Assembly: GCA_028691615.1 (NCBI GenBank)
Contig: JAQUYX010000007.1
Location: 1 to 40,044 of the forward strand
Length of the DNA stretch: 40,044 nucleotides
DNA from: Victivallaceae bacterium
Lineage (GTDB): Bacteria > Verrucomicrobiota > Lentisphaeria > Victivallales > Victivallaceae
Reading direction: 5' to 3'
Shown: one piece after another, positions 31,367 through 36,922 of the stretch
How the letters are laid out: the number at the start of each line of letters is the position of its first letter
How positions within the stretch are numbered: position 1 is the stretch's first letter
Made by a program: the position numbers and the translations under genes
The notes under the pieces: model-generated
What the model was told of the DNA's origin: nothing
The model's input: only the letters and a program-made list of their open reading frames with translations
Database searches by the model: none

Positions 31367-31391
31367 AATGACGGCTTGAAAAATCGTCATT
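31367..31391 (+). terminator. Weak terminator-like hairpin
   Basis: AATGACG (31367-31373) pairs with CGTCATT (31385-31391) around an 11-base loop, followed by only a few T. It lies between the isomerase-like gene and ribF. It may be a weak terminator or chance. Confidence 0.25.
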
Positions 31392-31434
31392 TTGCAGTAC
31401 CTTATCCGTCATATATGGAGTTTTTGACGGATTT

Positions 31435-32391
31435 ATGACGGATACGTTTTTTCCCATCTACGGAATGACACCGGGACGTTTTGCCGGCGGCCCGTTCCGG
31501 CGTTTTGCCGTGGCATTCGGTGTCTTTGACGGAGTGCACCCCGGACACCGAAAGGTGATCGGCGCACTCCGAAATATGGCGCAAAAGCACCATGCCGCAG
31601 CACTGGCGGTGACCTTTGATCCCCACCCGCGCGCGGTGCTGGCTCCGCAGGACCCGCCGAAGCTGATTCTGACATTGCCGGATCGCATCCGCAGGCTCCG
31701 CCAAGCGGGGGCGGATGAAGTTTTGGTCATCCCCTTTTCTGCGGAAATCGCCCGTCTGGAACCGGTGGAGTTTTTAGATAAATTCTTCTTTTGCCCCGGC
31801 ATGGAGATCGTCGGAATTGCCGTCGGCGAAAACTTTCGCTTCGGCAACAAAGGCGCAGGCAATGCGGAGACGCTCCGACAATTCGCCGCGGCGCACAAGA
31901 TGGATTTCGCGGCCGTTCCCATTGAACAATATGGACAGGAGGTCGTCAGTTCCAGCGCCATACGCAGGCTGATCGCTTCGGGGCGGCTGGACGAAGCATC
32001 CCGTTTTCTGCAGGAACGCTACGTCATTACCGGCACGGTCACACAGGGCGTCCACTACGCCTCGACCGCGTTGGAAACGCCGACGGCCAATCTGGACCCC
32101 GGCAATCTGGTGCTTCCGCCGGACGGAGTTTACGCGGCCGTGGCAGAGCTTGAGTCGGAACAGCGTTATCCCGCAGTGGTCAATATCGGACTCTCGCCCT
32201 CGTTCGCATGGGGAGGGCGCCGCCGGGTGGAAGCGCACCTGCTGCATTTCCATGGAACGCTTTACGGGAAAAAACTCTCGCTGGAATTACGCAAATTTCT
32301 GCGCAGCGAACGAATTTTCCCAGACGGCGAAGCACTCAAAAAACAAATAGCCCTTGACATCGACGCGGTTTCCGCCGCCGTTGCACAATGA
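31435..32391 (+). CDS. ribF: Bifunctional riboflavin kinase / FAD synthetase
   Basis: A 318-residue protein with the two RibF domains. The N-terminal adenylyltransferase has AVAFGVFDGVHPGHRKVI (about 23-40), VTFDPHPRAVL and the VGENFRFGNKGAGN segment, and ends with VSSSAIRRLIASGRLDEA. The C-terminal kinase has TGTVTQGVHYAS, LETPTANLDP (the PTAN motif) and PPDGVYAAV, and closes with ELRKFLRSERIF. It phosphorylates riboflavin to FMN and adenylates FMN to FAD in the cytoplasm. Length is typical. GGAG lies 15 bases before the ATG, so translation initiation looks weak; no better start is in frame. No FMN riboswitch is visible upstream. Confidence 0.96.
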   Translation: MTDTFFPIYGMTPGRFAGGPFRRFAVAFGVFDGVHPGHRKVIGALRNMAQKHHAAALAVTFDPHPRAVLAPQDPPKLILTLPDRIRRLRQAGADEVLVIPFSAEIARLEPVEFLDKFFFCPGMEIVGIAVGENFRFGNKGAGNAETLRQFAAAHKMDFAAVPIEQYGQEVVSSSAIRRLIASGRLDEASRFLQERYVITGTVTQGVHYASTALETPTANLDPGNLVLPPDGVYAAVAELESEQRYPAVVNIGLSPSFAWGGRRRVEAHLLHFHGTLYGKKLSLELRKFLRSERIFPDGEALKKQIALDIDAVSAAVAQ

Positions 32392-32420: not shown

Positions 32421-33497
32421 ATGGAAAAACGAATCTATCTGGTCAGCGATCTCGCCGGAGAATTGGGGGTCCCGCGTACCACCATCAATGATTGGCTCTC
32501 TAAATTCGACCGCTACATCGACAGTGAAAACCGGGGAAAACGCAAAGTTTACAACGAAAATTCCCTGACGGTTCTGAAGGAGATTTCCGCCCTGCGCGCG
32601 TCCGGCAAGAGTGCCTTCGACATTGAGAAGGCGCTCTCCGCGCGTTACGCCGTGCATCCCGACCCCGTGCCGCCCGCCGCGCAGCCGCTTCCTGAAAATT
32701 CCGGTTCTCCAGCTTCCGCCGATTCCAAAGAGCCCTCCGGCTCCCAGACTGACCCCGGTGCCATGCTGATGGTGACGCATGCGGCGGAAAAGATCAGCGC
32801 GGGGTTGTTCGATGAATTTACCAAGCTCACCGACCAGATGGCGCGACAGGAAGTTCGCCACAAACAAAGTCTCGCGCGGCTGGCGATGCTCAGCGGCCTT
32901 TTGCTTCTGCTGACTTTGGGGTTGGGCGTGATCGGCGGAGCGGCCTTTCTGAAATTCGTCGAGGTGCGCAGTCAATCCGATGCGGCGCTGACGCGCAGAA
33001 TGGTTGAAGGCACGAATTTGGTCCGTGACGATCTGGCCGAGAAAAACCGCCAGCAGATTCTCCGGCAGGAACAGTTGGCCAAGCGCCAGAACGACACTGT
33101 CGACCGGATTATGCTCGGCGTCGATCGCTTTCAGATCAAGAGTTCGGAGCGGGAAGAACGGCTGGAAAAAGAAATTCGCATGCAGAAAGAACTTTTCAGC
33201 GATCTGGTGCGCAGAATCGAAGAACAGAACAAGCAAAACCGCGCCGCAGAGCTGGCCGCCGCGCGCAACTCCTTCGAGCGGGAACTCGAATTGGTTCGCC
33301 GCACTACCGCCATCGAGATCGACAAATACGAGAAAGCCAGCAGAAATTCGGAACGCACCGCTTCGGAATTGCGTGGCAAGCTCGACGCGACCGATGGACT
33401 TTATCGCACGCTCAAACGCGATTTTGAGACGATGCAAAAGGAAAATGTCCTTTTGCGCAAACAGATCGAATTGCTCACGGAAAACAAGAAAAAATAA
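32421..33497 (+). CDS. Membrane-anchored MerR-type HTH protein with long coiled coil
   Basis: A 358-residue protein of unusual design. Residues 1-75 resemble a MerR winged helix (LVSDLAGELGVPRTTINDWL, then YNENSLTVLKEISALRASG). A proline- and serine-rich linker follows (about 78-115), then a helical region, one transmembrane helix (about 154-179, LSGLLLLLTLGLGVIGGAAF), and a charged coiled coil to the end (about 185-358). The HTH end should be cytoplasmic and the coiled coil would then face the periplasm. AAAGGA lies 11 bases before the ATG. It lies 29 bp after ribF and 14 bp before uppP. MerR-like domains tied to coiled coils and membranes are known from chromosome-anchoring proteins such as RacA, but homology to RacA is not claimed. 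I cannot assign a function. Confidence 0.82.
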   Translation: MEKRIYLVSDLAGELGVPRTTINDWLSKFDRYIDSENRGKRKVYNENSLTVLKEISALRASGKSAFDIEKALSARYAVHPDPVPPAAQPLPENSGSPASADSKEPSGSQTDPGAMLMVTHAAEKISAGLFDEFTKLTDQMARQEVRHKQSLARLAMLSGLLLLLTLGLGVIGGAAFLKFVEVRSQSDAALTRRMVEGTNLVRDDLAEKNRQQILRQEQLAKRQNDTVDRIMLGVDRFQIKSSEREERLEKEIRMQKELFSDLVRRIEEQNKQNRAAELAAARNSFERELELVRRTTAIEIDKYEKASRNSERTASELRGKLDATDGLYRTLKRDFETMQKENVLLRKQIELLTENKKK

Positions 33498-33511: not shown

Positions 33512-34306
33512 ATGGAATTTTTAATGATCGCGTTTCTTGCCGCCGTTCAGGGTGTCGCGGAATTTCTTCCGGTAAGCTCATCCGGCCACTTGGCTGTGCT
33601 CGGGAAACTCTTCGGCTTCGATCCGGAAAGCAATCTGAAACTGGGTATCGTCCTTCATGCGGGAACGCTCTGTTCTATTTTTGTGGTCTATTTCCCGCGT
33701 CTCCTGGCTTTCCTTAAGCCTCCCTATCGGTGGCGTGCGGCCGCAATGGTGATTGTTGGAAGCATTCCCGCCGGTTTGGCGGGGATTGCACTTAAACTCA
33801 GCGGCATAGCCTCCGGAATTTTTGAAAACTTCTGGGTGATCGGCTGCGGATTTTTGACAACCGGAATCATTCTCTGGATCGGGCGCCGCGCCGCCGCTTC
33901 CGTCGCCGACGGGACCACTGTGGATCGCACCCGCTGGTACACGCCCATCGTCGTCGGCATCGTTCAAATGCTGGCGATCATCCCCGGCATCTCCCGCTCG
34001 GGATCCACCATCGGCGCGGGACTCAAATGCAAATTGCGCGCCGACGCCGCGGCGGAGTATTCCTTCCTGCTGGCAATCCCCGCAATCGGCGGCGCGGGGC
34101 TGGTTGAACTGCTCAAAAGCACTGAGCCGATTCAGAAGGGGGAGCTTTCGATGCTCATCGCCGGATTTTTTATCTCCGCGGCAGTCGGAATCGCCGCCTT
34201 GAAAATTCTGATCGTGCTTTTGGAAAAAGCACGGTTTCATTACTTCGCGTGGTATCTTTGGACTATCGGCACAATTGTCCTGCTGATGGCCCTTATGGGA
34301 TACTGA
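33512..34306 (+). CDS. uppP: Undecaprenyl-diphosphate phosphatase
   Basis: A 264-residue polytopic membrane protein of the BacA/UppP family. The first signature, AAVQGVAEFLPVSSSGHLAV, holds the catalytic Glu17 and the SSSGH motif. The second, IIPGISRSGSTIGAGL, supplies the Arg and Ser of the PGxSRSG loop. At least six hydrophobic helices are visible. The enzyme dephosphorylates undecaprenyl diphosphate to recycle the lipid carrier for peptidoglycan and surface polysaccharides. It overlaps nothing and ends 4 bp before the convergent permease gene. AAAGG precedes the ATG. Confident call. Confidence 0.96.
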   Translation: MEFLMIAFLAAVQGVAEFLPVSSSGHLAVLGKLFGFDPESNLKLGIVLHAGTLCSIFVVYFPRLLAFLKPPYRWRAAAMVIVGSIPAGLAGIALKLSGIASGIFENFWVIGCGFLTTGIILWIGRRAAASVADGTTVDRTRWYTPIVVGIVQMLAIIPGISRSGSTIGAGLKCKLRADAAAEYSFLLAIPAIGGAGLVELLKSTEPIQKGELSMLIAGFFISAAVGIAALKILIVLLEKARFHYFAWYLWTIGTIVLLMALMGY

Positions 34307-34310
34307 GTTC

Positions 34311-35270
34311 TTATTGACGGTTGTCCGCGGCAAGTTCTTTATTCTGGAAGAGCGTCACCGCCCACAACGTCCCGATGAACGCGTACAGGAGCGAGTACAC
34401 CAACGCCGTCAGAACATATCCGAAGGGAATCATCCGTCCCGTCGTAATCGCATCTGCGGTCCAATAGTACTGCCAGTTGGGAATCAGTGCATAGCAGCAG
34501 GCAAAAAGCCCGTTCACAAATCCGCTGTCCGTCTGCCGCTGAAAGAGATAACTGGAAATCAGTCCAAGAAACAGAATCACCGCGCAGCAACACAGTGTCG
34601 TGACCATATCAAACCGCAAGGACAGGATCACCGCGAAGAGCGTCATCACTCCGACCGCCATCCCGACCAGCAGGAACGCAAACAGGAGATTCCGTAACGA
34701 CAGCTCCGGGTGCGAACTGCTGAAAAAACATACCGCCAACAGGATTGGCAATAAAACCAACACTCCCAGCGTCGTCGCCGCCGGAAAACTGTAGCCTTTC
34801 CAGAAGTTCATCGCCATGCCGAAAAGACATCCGACCAGCAATGTTCCGAGATAGGCAAAATAAATCACCATGTCGAAACGAAACTCATCCGTGGCAATGT
34901 AGGTCGCCAGAAACCCTCCGACCATCCCGAGAAAAACAAAAATACCCCCGGCCAGCAGAATTCCGGTGATTTTGGCAAGCACAAAACACATCCGGTTCAC
35001 TGGCTTGGAAAGCAACAAAAGCACCGTCCCGTTGCGCATCTCGCGCGAAACGGTGTAGGTGCTTGACAAGATTACCGCCAGCATTCCGAAGGTCAGCGTC
35101 GCTGCAAGCGCGCCGTCCACCACCAGCTTGAGCTGTTCGGAAAACACAAAGAGCGTGACTGACGGCAGATGACCGAGAATCACCAGCGTGGCCAGCAGCA
35201 TGATACAGAAAATCGGCTCCCGGATCGACTCCTTGAACGTATTGTCGGCGATTCGAAAGAAATTGAACAT
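34311..35270 (-). CDS. ABC-2 type transporter permease
   Basis: A 319-residue membrane protein with about six to seven hydrophobic segments. An N-terminal MFNFFRIADNTFKESIREPI precedes the first helix, and TYTVSREMRNGTVLLLLSKPV is the cytoplasmic coupling region typical of ABC-2/NosY-type permeases. The long C-terminal hydrophobic part ends in a short basic tail. AGAGG lies 8 bases before the ATG at 35270; an upstream GTG at 35279 is less likely. The ATP-binding subunit is not in the window, so it must be encoded elsewhere. The gene lies 26 bp after the secreted CWB2-like gene, so the two may be cotranscribed. The substrate is unknown. Confidence 0.82.
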   Translation of the reverse strand: MFNFFRIADNTFKESIREPIFCIMLLATLVILGHLPSVTLFVFSEQLKLVVDGALAATLTFGMLAVILSSTYTVSREMRNGTVLLLLSKPVNRMCFVLAKITGILLAGGIFVFLGMVGGFLATYIATDEFRFDMVIYFAYLGTLLVGCLFGMAMNFWKGYSFPAATTLGVLVLLPILLAVCFFSSSHPELSLRNLLFAFLLVGMAVGVMTLFAVILSLRFDMVTTLCCCAVILFLGLISSYLFQRQTDSGFVNGLFACCYALIPNWQYYWTADAITTGRMIPFGYVLTALVYSLLYAFIGTLWAVTLFQNKELAADNRQ

Positions 35271-35296
35271 CAACAGCACCTCTTTCCGAGAAAAAT

Positions 35297-35938
35297 TTAT
35301 TCCAGAGAAGGAAGCGCTTCTCCATTGGCGGCTCCCGCCGGCGCGACGCTCGGTTCCGCAGGCGCGGCCGCGTTTCCATCGGGATTGGGAACCTGCGACG
35401 ACGCCCCGGATTTCTCCTCGCTCTGGCGATTGGGACGGTACAATTTCCCGCTGCGGATTTCCCGGTCGAGCTTCTCGAAGTTGCGATCCAGATTGGAGAG
35501 CGCGAGCATGTCCGAAAGCATCACCGCGATCCGCTGATAATTTCTGCCGCTGACCACCGCGATCGGCATGGACGGATCAATCCGGTTCAGATAGCGCTGC
35601 GGAACAATATCCGGTCCGCCAATCACCACGATCCGCTTGGGATTGACAAAGCTGATGAACCTGGTCAGATTTGCTTCGGAGACTTCCAGCGCCGGGGACT
35701 TCTCCTTCGGAGGACAGAAATAAATCTTGTCCATGCTGCGCGCCGGCAACAGCAGAATCGGCTGGCGGCTTTCCGCCTGAATCAACTCCGCCATCATCCG
35801 GGGATACAGCAAGTTGGAGGTGACCACCAAAGTAACCACATCGCGCTTGGGGCCCTCGTAGGGCCATGCTCCGCCGTAAACGACAGACATGCAGACAGAC
35901 AAAGCGCAAAACATTGTCAAACAAATTTTTCCGATCAT
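35297..35938 (-). CDS. Secreted protein with CWB2-like segment and Pro/Ala-rich tail
   Basis: A 213-residue exported protein. Residues 1-22 are a signal peptide (KICLTMFCALSVCMSVVYGG). The body has TLVVTSNLLYPRMMAELIQA, ILLLPARSMDKIYFCPP and FVNPKRIVVIGGPDIVPQRY, which recall the putative cell-wall-binding repeat 2 fold (a domain that reads 'ILL...KKIYIIGG'). The last 40 residues are rich in Pro, Ala and Gly (AAAPAEPSVAPAGAANG). AGAGGG lies 7 bases before the ATG at 35938. It is upstream of the ABC-2 permease. Assignment to CWB2 is tentative and rests on pattern recall. An export or surface role is the only firm inference. Confidence 0.65.
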   Translation of the reverse strand: MIGKICLTMFCALSVCMSVVYGGAWPYEGPKRDVVTLVVTSNLLYPRMMAELIQAESRQPILLLPARSMDKIYFCPPKEKSPALEVSEANLTRFISFVNPKRIVVIGGPDIVPQRYLNRIDPSMPIAVVSGRNYQRIAVMLSDMLALSNLDRNFEKLDREIRSGKLYRPNRQSEEKSGASSQVPNPDGNAAAPAEPSVAPAGAANGEALPSLE

Positions 35939-36217
35939 CGTGAACCCTCTTGTTCTATCATGGTTGATAGTAAAATAAACCGCATTTAAACATTTCATCC
36001 AGACCTTTGCACCCGCTTCCGGGCTCTTTTCGAAAGGTCTCAGGCAGCATCGGCACTACACCGGACAACTCTGCTCTCTTATATAATAAACCAATCCGCA
36101 AAAGTTGCAAATCAAAATCCGCTTTTTCTTATGAAAAAAACAGGTTGATTTCCACGCCGGAACACTGTATATTACTTTTGAGCATCCTTTCGAAAAAATC
36201 ATACCGGAATCGGGCGA

Positions 36218-36922
36218 ATGAACACAAAAGATCCCTCCCGCATCAGCAGCAATCTTGAAGACTATCTGGAAGCAATCGCAGGAATCATCGAGGAAAAAAA
36301 ACACGCCTACACCCGCGACGTGTCCGAAAAACTTGAAGTCTCCTCCTCCTCCGTTTCCAGTGCACTGCAAACCCTCGTCGAACGCGGCATGGTTCGTCCC
36401 TCTCCGCAGCGCGGCGCTCCCATTCTCCTGACCGGCGAAGGCGCCGAACGCGCCGCCGTCATCCGCCGCCGCCACGAAGCGCTTCGCGGCTTCCTCTCCG
36501 ACGTGCTCAAAATCGAACGCGACGAGGCCGACCGTATCGGATGCCGCATCGAACATGTGATCGGAGAAAAGGTCATTTCCCGGTTGACCGCGCTCTCCGA
36601 GGCGATCGTCACTCGCCCCGACTGCGCAGAACTGCGCGCCTTCCTTGACAAGGCCATGCCGCAGATCAAGGTCGATTCCGACGAGGATCTCATCTGTCTG
36701 AACCAGCTGCCGGACGGTCGCAGCGGCGTAGTTGTCAAAGTCGACGAAACCTTGCGCGGCCTGCGGAAATTCGCCGATCTCGGCATGGTGCGCGGTACGC
36801 TGTTGACCATGGAAGGGCGTGCGCCGTTCGGCGATCTCATCCGGGTCAAAGTGATGAATAGTTCGCTTACTTTGCGCAGCCGGGACGCCGCCTGCATTCA
36901 AGTGCGGCTGGTGGAGCGCTGA
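36218..36922 (+). CDS. DtxR/MntR-family metal regulator with FeoA-like C-terminus
   Basis: A 234-residue regulator. Residues 1-75 form the winged helix (SNLEDYLEAIAGIIEEKKHA, DVSEKLEVSSSSVSSALQTL). Residues 80-145 are the metal-binding dimerisation domain (RRRHEALRGFLSDVL, DEADRIGCRIEHVIG), with the Cys/His/Glu-type ligands of iron- and manganese-responsive repressors. The C-terminal 75 residues look like a FeoA/SH3-like domain (RGLRKFADLGMVRGTLLTME). It most likely senses Mn or Fe and represses uptake genes, none of which is in the window. The start lacks a strong RBS (GGGCG 2 bases before), and an upstream promoter is not obvious. Confidence 0.88.
   Translation: MNTKDPSRISSNLEDYLEAIAGIIEEKKHAYTRDVSEKLEVSSSSVSSALQTLVERGMVRPSPQRGAPILLTGEGAERAAVIRRRHEALRGFLSDVLKIERDEADRIGCRIEHVIGEKVISRLTALSEAIVTRPDCAELRAFLDKAMPQIKVDSDEDLICLNQLPDGRSGVVVKVDETLRGLRKFADLGMVRGTLLTMEGRAPFGDLIRVKVMNSSLTLRSRDAACIQVRLVER

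Follow-up and report, generated by a model that had tools for sequence, protein, structure and literature searches.

The window analysed here is a stretch of 40,044 nucleotides from Victivallaceae bacterium (contig JAQUYX010000007.1 of assembly GCA_028691615.1). It carries a gene for a MerR-like protein, predicted to be membrane-tethered, located between ribF and uppP. The genes and features of this locus, in window coordinates, are the following:

31404..31411, minus strand: third TGACGGAT box, inverted
31425..31443, plus strand: pair of TGACGGAT boxes at 11-bp spacing within the promoter region of ribF; a candidate for the binding site
31435..32391, plus strand: ribF (FAD_syn and Flavokinase, Pfam), conserved upstream partner; its true start is probably downstream of 31435
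32421..33497, plus strand: coding sequence of the predicted membrane-tethered MerR-like protein, ATG start, 358 amino acids
32436..32639, plus strand: MerR-type winged helix-turn-helix (wHTH), residues 6-73 (Pfam MerR_1; AlphaFold2 pLDDT about 97; Foldseek match to the RacA DNA-binding domain, 5i44)
32655..32792, plus strand: proline-rich disordered linker, residues 79-124 (proline content, AlphaFold2 pLDDT)
32880..32951, plus strand: single predicted transmembrane helix, residues 154-177 (hydrophobicity)
32952..33491, plus strand: long charged helix, residues 178-357, predicted periplasmic coiled coil (charge, AlphaFold2, heptads; the topology is a prediction)
33512..34306, plus strand: uppP (BacA, Pfam), downstream neighbour, not conserved

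The Pfam family MerR_1 matches residues 6-73 of the protein with an E-value of 4.8e-07 (30.2 bits, against a curated cut-off of 21.6), and no NCBIfam family matches its 358 amino acids. An AlphaFold2 model based on 58 sequences gives a confident wHTH, composed of helices 8-15 and 19-28, strands 35-38 and 41-44, and helices 46-60 and 65-75, followed by disorder over residues 85-124 (pLDDT below 50) and by one continuous predicted helix over residues 125-357, mostly with pLDDT above 90. Proline makes up 20% of the linker (79-124) and 2.8% of the protein overall. Kyte-Doolittle analysis finds one hydrophobic segment, with a maximum of 2.29 and a core at residues 154-177; exactly one membrane segment is present in all 58 proteins compared, that is the window protein and 57 homologues. 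The 181 residues C-terminal of the membrane segment are 42% charged and contain no proline, and the heptad contrast of this helix was matched by 7 of 1000 shuffled sequences. The anatomy proposed in a preliminary description of this DNA (DNA-binding-type head, proline-rich linker, one membrane helix, long coiled-coil-like helix) is thus borne out by Pfam, hydrophobicity, AlphaFold2 and heptads; the periplasmic location of the C-terminal part and its coiled coil stay predictions.

The protein is predicted to have its N terminus in the cytoplasm by the positive-inside rule, because lysine and arginine residues within 15 positions of the membrane segment are more frequent on the N-terminal side across the 58 proteins (mean 4.7, against 3.1 on the C-terminal side). 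The N-terminal side is the richer one in 49 of them, equal in five and poorer in four; the balance of the window protein itself is just 4 to 3. Canonical MerR regulators possess a dimerisation helix straight after the wHTH, and an effector domain. The present protein departs from this layout, as its wHTH ends at residue 75 and is followed by the disordered stretch and then by the membrane helix, and neither Pfam nor NCBIfam searches found an effector domain on it.

A protein search of 61 genomes, the window's own included, returned one match each in 45, which argues that the architecture of this reading frame is not a product of chance. With a profile of the wHTH, 62 of 387 genomes of the phylum matched at E ≤1e-6, each with a single copy and all belonging to the order Victivallales; this supplies the phyletic distribution for which the preliminary description had called, and the family is, among the genomes searched, a one-copy family restricted to this order. 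Named carriers (Lentisphaeria, Victivallales) include Victivallis vadensis DSM 14823, strain zth2 (CP071032, genome label G010) and strain WC36 (CP085689, G037). Ten residues are invariant in the 58 sequences (L11, R19, T21, N23, D24, W25, G39, R41, L52 and L72). All of them lie in the wHTH, where conservation is concentrated; averaged over all columns of the alignment, identity is 22%. Loss of the gene is frequent in genus g15, where it is kept in three of 23 sampled genomes; searches of the genomes sampled from families f5, f6 and f8 gave no match. A divergent copy behind ribF was sought in 18 ribF loci of gene-less genomes and none was found. Two further genomes without the gene (G006 and G056) also lack ribF in their assemblies, and these absences are probably assembly gaps; in the genome-wide comparison of boxes described below, G006 was counted as a non-carrier and G056 lay outside the sample.

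Among 57 named loci, 52 have ribF immediately upstream in the same orientation, and in at least 12 loci the two genes overlap by 4 bases. Co-transcription of ribF and the membrane-protein gene is therefore likely; beyond it, ribF offers no obvious functional clue. Downstream partners vary and include acpS (16 loci), ruvC (5), a queD-like gene (5) and others (apart from uppP and ribF, neighbours were named by eye from their translations). The preliminary description had pointed to uppP as a hint of function, but this gene adjoins the family directly downstream in the window alone. A functional link to uppP was consequently rejected, since the neighbourhood is not conserved. Further along the window, an open reading frame at 34311-35998 on the minus strand gives a weak match to ABC-2 permeases and adjoins a gene for a 233-aa protein without Pfam match, and 36218-36922, a few genes downstream, codes for a metal repressor of DtxR/MntR type with FeoA domain.

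The promoter of ribF contains repeated TGACGG boxes. In the window they start at 31404 (minus strand), 31425 and 31436 (both plus strand), with a weaker box at 31369. Since the first ATG of ribF shares bases with the boxes at 31425 and 31436, translation probably begins at a later codon, such as the ATG at 31465. Footprinting of ribF promoters across the family yielded the 9-mer AAATGACGG upstream of ribF in 19 of 51 loci (in shuffled sequences any 9-mer reaches at most 9) and the tandem pattern TGACGG-N5-TGACGG, an 11-bp repeat forming a 17-bp site; boxes are arranged as 11-bp direct repeats and as facing pairs. In 0.81 Mb of family loci, the commonest distance between two TGACGG motifs is 11 bp (14 cases), followed by 32 bp (8) and 12 bp (5). 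Tandem matches at 11 or more of the 12 box positions occur in 19/51 ribF promoters of carriers, as compared with 13 of 1000 background windows drawn from these loci and with none of 18 ribF promoters of non-carriers (Fisher p 0.001 for the latter). In genome G018 the gene lies about 1.07 Mb from the origin, yet its promoter keeps tandem boxes with one mismatch. The ribF promoter of WC36 has a drifted pair, two ACGG cores 11 bp apart; such a drifted form was not seen at the inspected loci of family f3 and genus g6 (L027 and L023). By this association, the protein is the candidate binder of the TGACGG boxes.

Genome-wide, exact copies of TGACGG-N5-TGACGG were counted, with the reversed pattern as control. 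Within Victivallales, 62 carriers contain 277 sites (control 31) and 35 non-carriers 38 sites (control 15), a difference with Mann-Whitney p of 2.9e-6; as the pattern was chosen post hoc, after the promoters had been seen, and the genomes are related, the p-values for boxes are optimistic and overstate independence. Two or more exact sites are present in 44/62 carriers and in 8/35 non-carriers. The same association holds inside genus g15, whose three carriers have 7, 4 and 6 sites and whose 20 non-carriers have 0-5 each (p 0.0011); the non-carrier with five sites owes them to a tandem array (G102). Spacers with at least four A/T positions, counted by eye, account for 13/17 in the three g15 carriers and for 5/26 in 17 of the 20 non-carriers. 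The association has exceptions on both sides: exact sites are lacking in twelve of the 62 carriers, four of the five carriers of family f3 included, and 20 of the 35 non-carriers have at least one, mostly near the control level. In 34 outgroup genomes of the class without the gene, 61 sites stand against 28 in the control. Of these, 21 come from two genomes of the same class in which the gene was not found, G361 and G252, where the tandem pattern occurs 13 and 8 times. Carriers of family f3 (G038, G052, G057, G060, G295) and of genus g6 (G005, G022) have almost no exact boxes; the site may have diverged there, or the protein may work independently of boxes in these lineages.

In three genomes (G010, G018 and G039), the boxes cluster around the origin of replication as marked by GC skew. 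In strain zth2 (G010), which is assembled in one contig, eight of nine site loci fall between 2.03 and 2.32 Mb; random placement gave a best 300-kb window as full as this with a frequency of 1e-5 (200,000 trials). In samples of GC skew from this genome, negative values prevail between about 0.56 and 2.10 Mb and positive ones past that point, which places the origin near 2.10-2.13 Mb, and recF (identified by eye) lies at about 2.103 Mb. The median distance of the site loci to the skew flip is 85 kb (p 4.5e-5). In genome G018 the skew changes sign abruptly at about 1.677 Mb, from -0.135 (1.664-1.676 Mb) to +0.038 (1.678-1.698 Mb), with exact sites by the flip at 1.668, 1.681, 1.693, 1.719, 1.721 and 1.800 Mb and further ones at 1.426, 1.614, 2.550 and 2.927 Mb; its rRNA at 1.790 Mb, on the plus strand, points away from the flip. 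G039 belongs to another family; a single 216-kb contig, 8.6% of its genome, carries six of its eight exact sites along with the gene and a RecF homologue. The skew of that contig is shallow, and its cumulative curve reaches a minimum at about 40-80 kb. Scans of parts of this contig for tRNA and Rfam families gave no rRNA landmark, and a 16S model found no match in G010. For WC36, rRNA orientation points to an origin in the interval 2.96-3.25 Mb; the gene is at 3.106 Mb, and exact boxes were not found in this genome.

The dnaA gene is located away from the skew origin in both G010 (536752) and G018 (3045797, C1). In zth2 it lies almost opposite the skew origin, near the skew maximum. This position raised the question of a terminus organiser similar to MatP, a reading that was rejected because GC skew, rRNA orientation and recF place the cluster at the origin.

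The wHTH was compared with known structures. Its best Foldseek match is the RacA DNA-binding domain (PDB ID 5i44, E 1.5e-3, probability 1.00; E-values for 5i44 and 5i41 range from 1.5e-3 to 2.7e-3), and BldC (6ama) is also among the matches. VIA-align superposes the domain on 5i44 with a Z-score of 10.4 and an rmsd of 1.6 Å over 67 residues, tied with MerR regulators, GlnR and others, and on the centromere-binding domain of pSK1 Par (8csh) with a Z-score of 7.1 and 1.7 Å over 53 residues. Sequence searches of the PDB gave nothing useful for the whole protein and a single phage HTH (E 0.005) for the HTH profile. The modelled domain thus has a RacA-type DNA-binding fold, though one common to other MerR proteins and hence not specific, and the fold alone does not separate a regulator from an anchor.

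Several known systems resemble the present one in part. The parS sites of ParB systems are palindromes that cluster at the origin, some of them inside genes. The boxes share with them the clustering at the origin and the location of some sites within genes; differences are that the boxes are direct repeats, that the protein paired with them here is a membrane protein, and that no ParB domain is present (Pfam and NCBIfam searches of the 358-aa protein for the ParB N-terminal domain gave no match). RacA of Bacillus subtilis is not known to have a membrane helix and is recruited to the membrane at the pole via DivIVA; the protein described here carries its own membrane helix in 58/58 sequences and is present in one copy behind ribF. 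The likeness to RacA consists in the N-terminal MerR-type wHTH, the coiled coil (predicted here) and a tether between DNA and membrane (proposed here). RacA binds ram sites, which are concentrated near the origin (PMC6593407). RocS of Streptococcus pneumoniae and pSK1 Par likewise combine an N-terminal MerR-type wHTH, a coiled coil and membrane anchoring, and act in segregation where ParABS is dispensable; RocS also works with a transmembrane segment replacing its amphipathic helix (PMC11500499). Its coiled coil lies between the DNA-binding domain and the C-terminal amphipathic helix, whereas the present protein has its membrane helix in the middle and a coiled coil that is predicted to be external. 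BldC of Streptomyces places MerR-like heads head to tail on direct repeats, RacA binding as a symmetric dimer (PMC5859096). BldC is a soluble regulator of 68 residues with 9-bp repeats and no coiled coil, as compared with an 11-bp candidate repeat, 358 residues and a membrane helix here. MerR-like anchors between DNA and membrane are thus already known, and by analogy the present protein is best read as a variant built as one membrane protein.

The status of ParB in the order was determined with the model TIGR00180 (tallies counted from the result table), which matches in 294 of 387 genomes of the phylum. Outside the class, 246 of 252 matching genomes reach an E-value of 1e-40; in the rest of the class ten genomes match, one at 9.9e-44; within the order 32 match, none better than 1.2e-24. 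The window's own genome has one weak match (1.4e-8) and none to ParB_N, which is found in 18 of the 61 genomes. Chromosomal-grade ParB is therefore absent from the genomes sampled in the order and from most of those sampled in the class, nearly all the remaining phylum has it, and it appears to have been lost from the Victivallales lineage. A simple complementation, with the protein substituting for ParB, found no support, because ParB_N matches are also absent from the Victivallales genomes that lack the gene. Searches of open-licence literature listed no account of the protein, of its sites or of a ParB-free system in Lentisphaerae or Victivallales, and the main text of PMC12283558, in the part available, does not use the word ParB.

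We propose, with a probability of about 0.58, that the protein sits in the membrane and, in the manner of RacA, binds centromere-like DNA and so anchors the origin region. Its cytoplasmic N-terminal wHTH would bind the tandem TGACGG boxes at 11-bp spacing, one box per head, head to tail and on the same face of the helix, as 11 bp is approximately one helical turn, an arrangement that would suit tethering to a membrane. With boxes located mainly within a few hundred kb of the origin, and also in genes, the bound protein would hold the region around the origin at the inner membrane. Reach would come from the flexible linker, and the periplasmic coiled coil would either oligomerise the anchor or attach it to the wall. 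The ribF-anchor operon might also be autoregulated through the boxes of its promoter. We infer a role in segregation or positioning. The earlier suggestion that the protein could link DNA to the envelope finds support in kind from the conserved wHTH residues, the fold match to RacA, the origin-clustered tandem site that tracks the gene, and the loss of ParB; the part that we infer rather than observe is the binding by this protein. The other earlier suggestion, transmission of an envelope signal, is compatible with these findings. The anchor reading is weakened by the 12/62 carriers without an exact site, the 20/35 non-carriers with at least one and the excess in outgroups (61 sites, control 28), and also by the position of dnaA away from the skew origin, opposite to it in G010.

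An unlikely alternative, though the best placed among the others, is a membrane-tethered one-component transcription regulator, whose periplasmic coiled coil would sense the state of the envelope and whose tandem operators would control ribF, the gene itself and other genes, origin clustering being a side effect. Canonical MerR domains are transcription regulators, ribF promoter boxes are present in 19/51 carriers, and several zth2 sites are intergenic and close to gene starts. Against plain operators argues the location of sites inside coding sequences (gene names by eye): nnr, a radical-SAM/methyltransferase fusion, aroA (near its end) and murJ in G010, and a glycosyltransferase-like frame, an acetyltransferase-like frame and thyX (with a triple box) in G018. 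Other sites are intergenic, some near gene starts, and one lies between two open reading frames facing each other. Several sites are deep within unrelated genes, the nearest genes have no obvious common pathway, and a regulatory role would not account for the origin clustering seen in three genomes. Slightly less probable still, the boxes could be centromere-like sites of another Victivallales protein, with the membrane protein acting otherwise, for example as a scaffold of envelope assembly using its wHTH for protein contacts. The link between protein and boxes is one of association, and exact sites are absent from the twelve carriers mentioned, which agrees with such a separate binder; however, boxed ribF promoters are found only where the gene follows, and the wHTH retains invariant R19 and R41 as well as the recognition-helix motif. 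RodZ has the same order of parts (HTH inside, one membrane helix, periplasmic part), but a RodZ-like morphogenesis factor is very improbable and a RodZ substitute was rejected, since Pfam finds no HTH_25 match on the protein and HTH_25 proteins are encoded by separate genes in 58/61 genomes, with or without this gene.

If the anchor reading is correct, the protein is a transmembrane centromere-binding protein, to our knowledge a form not previously known. A further, more tentative step, which we hold to be somewhat less probable than its converse, is a ParB-independent mode of segregation in which an integral inner-membrane protein itself binds the centromere, and origin-proximal direct repeats are mechanically coupled through membrane helix and periplasmic coiled coil to the wall or outer envelope. 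For origin placement and separation without ParABS, one lineage within the PVC bacteria gains here a concrete candidate, with a gene present once per genome, a 17-bp site and a cluster of such sites mapped around the origin in zth2 and other genomes. The boxes would also mark replication origins where dnaA is off the skew origin, as in the two genomes examined.

Weak matches outside the order (L088-L100, from Planctomycetes, Clostridia and Bacillota) were considered as homologues and rejected, because by eye they are ECF sigma factors or ParB proteins that share the common HTH motif only. The HTH core LGxPRTTxNDW of the Victivallales family recurs in proteins unrelated to it, namely in ParB-like proteins of Clostridia and Bacillota and at the end of a Planctomycete ECF sigma factor (L095, L099, L100 and L088-L098).
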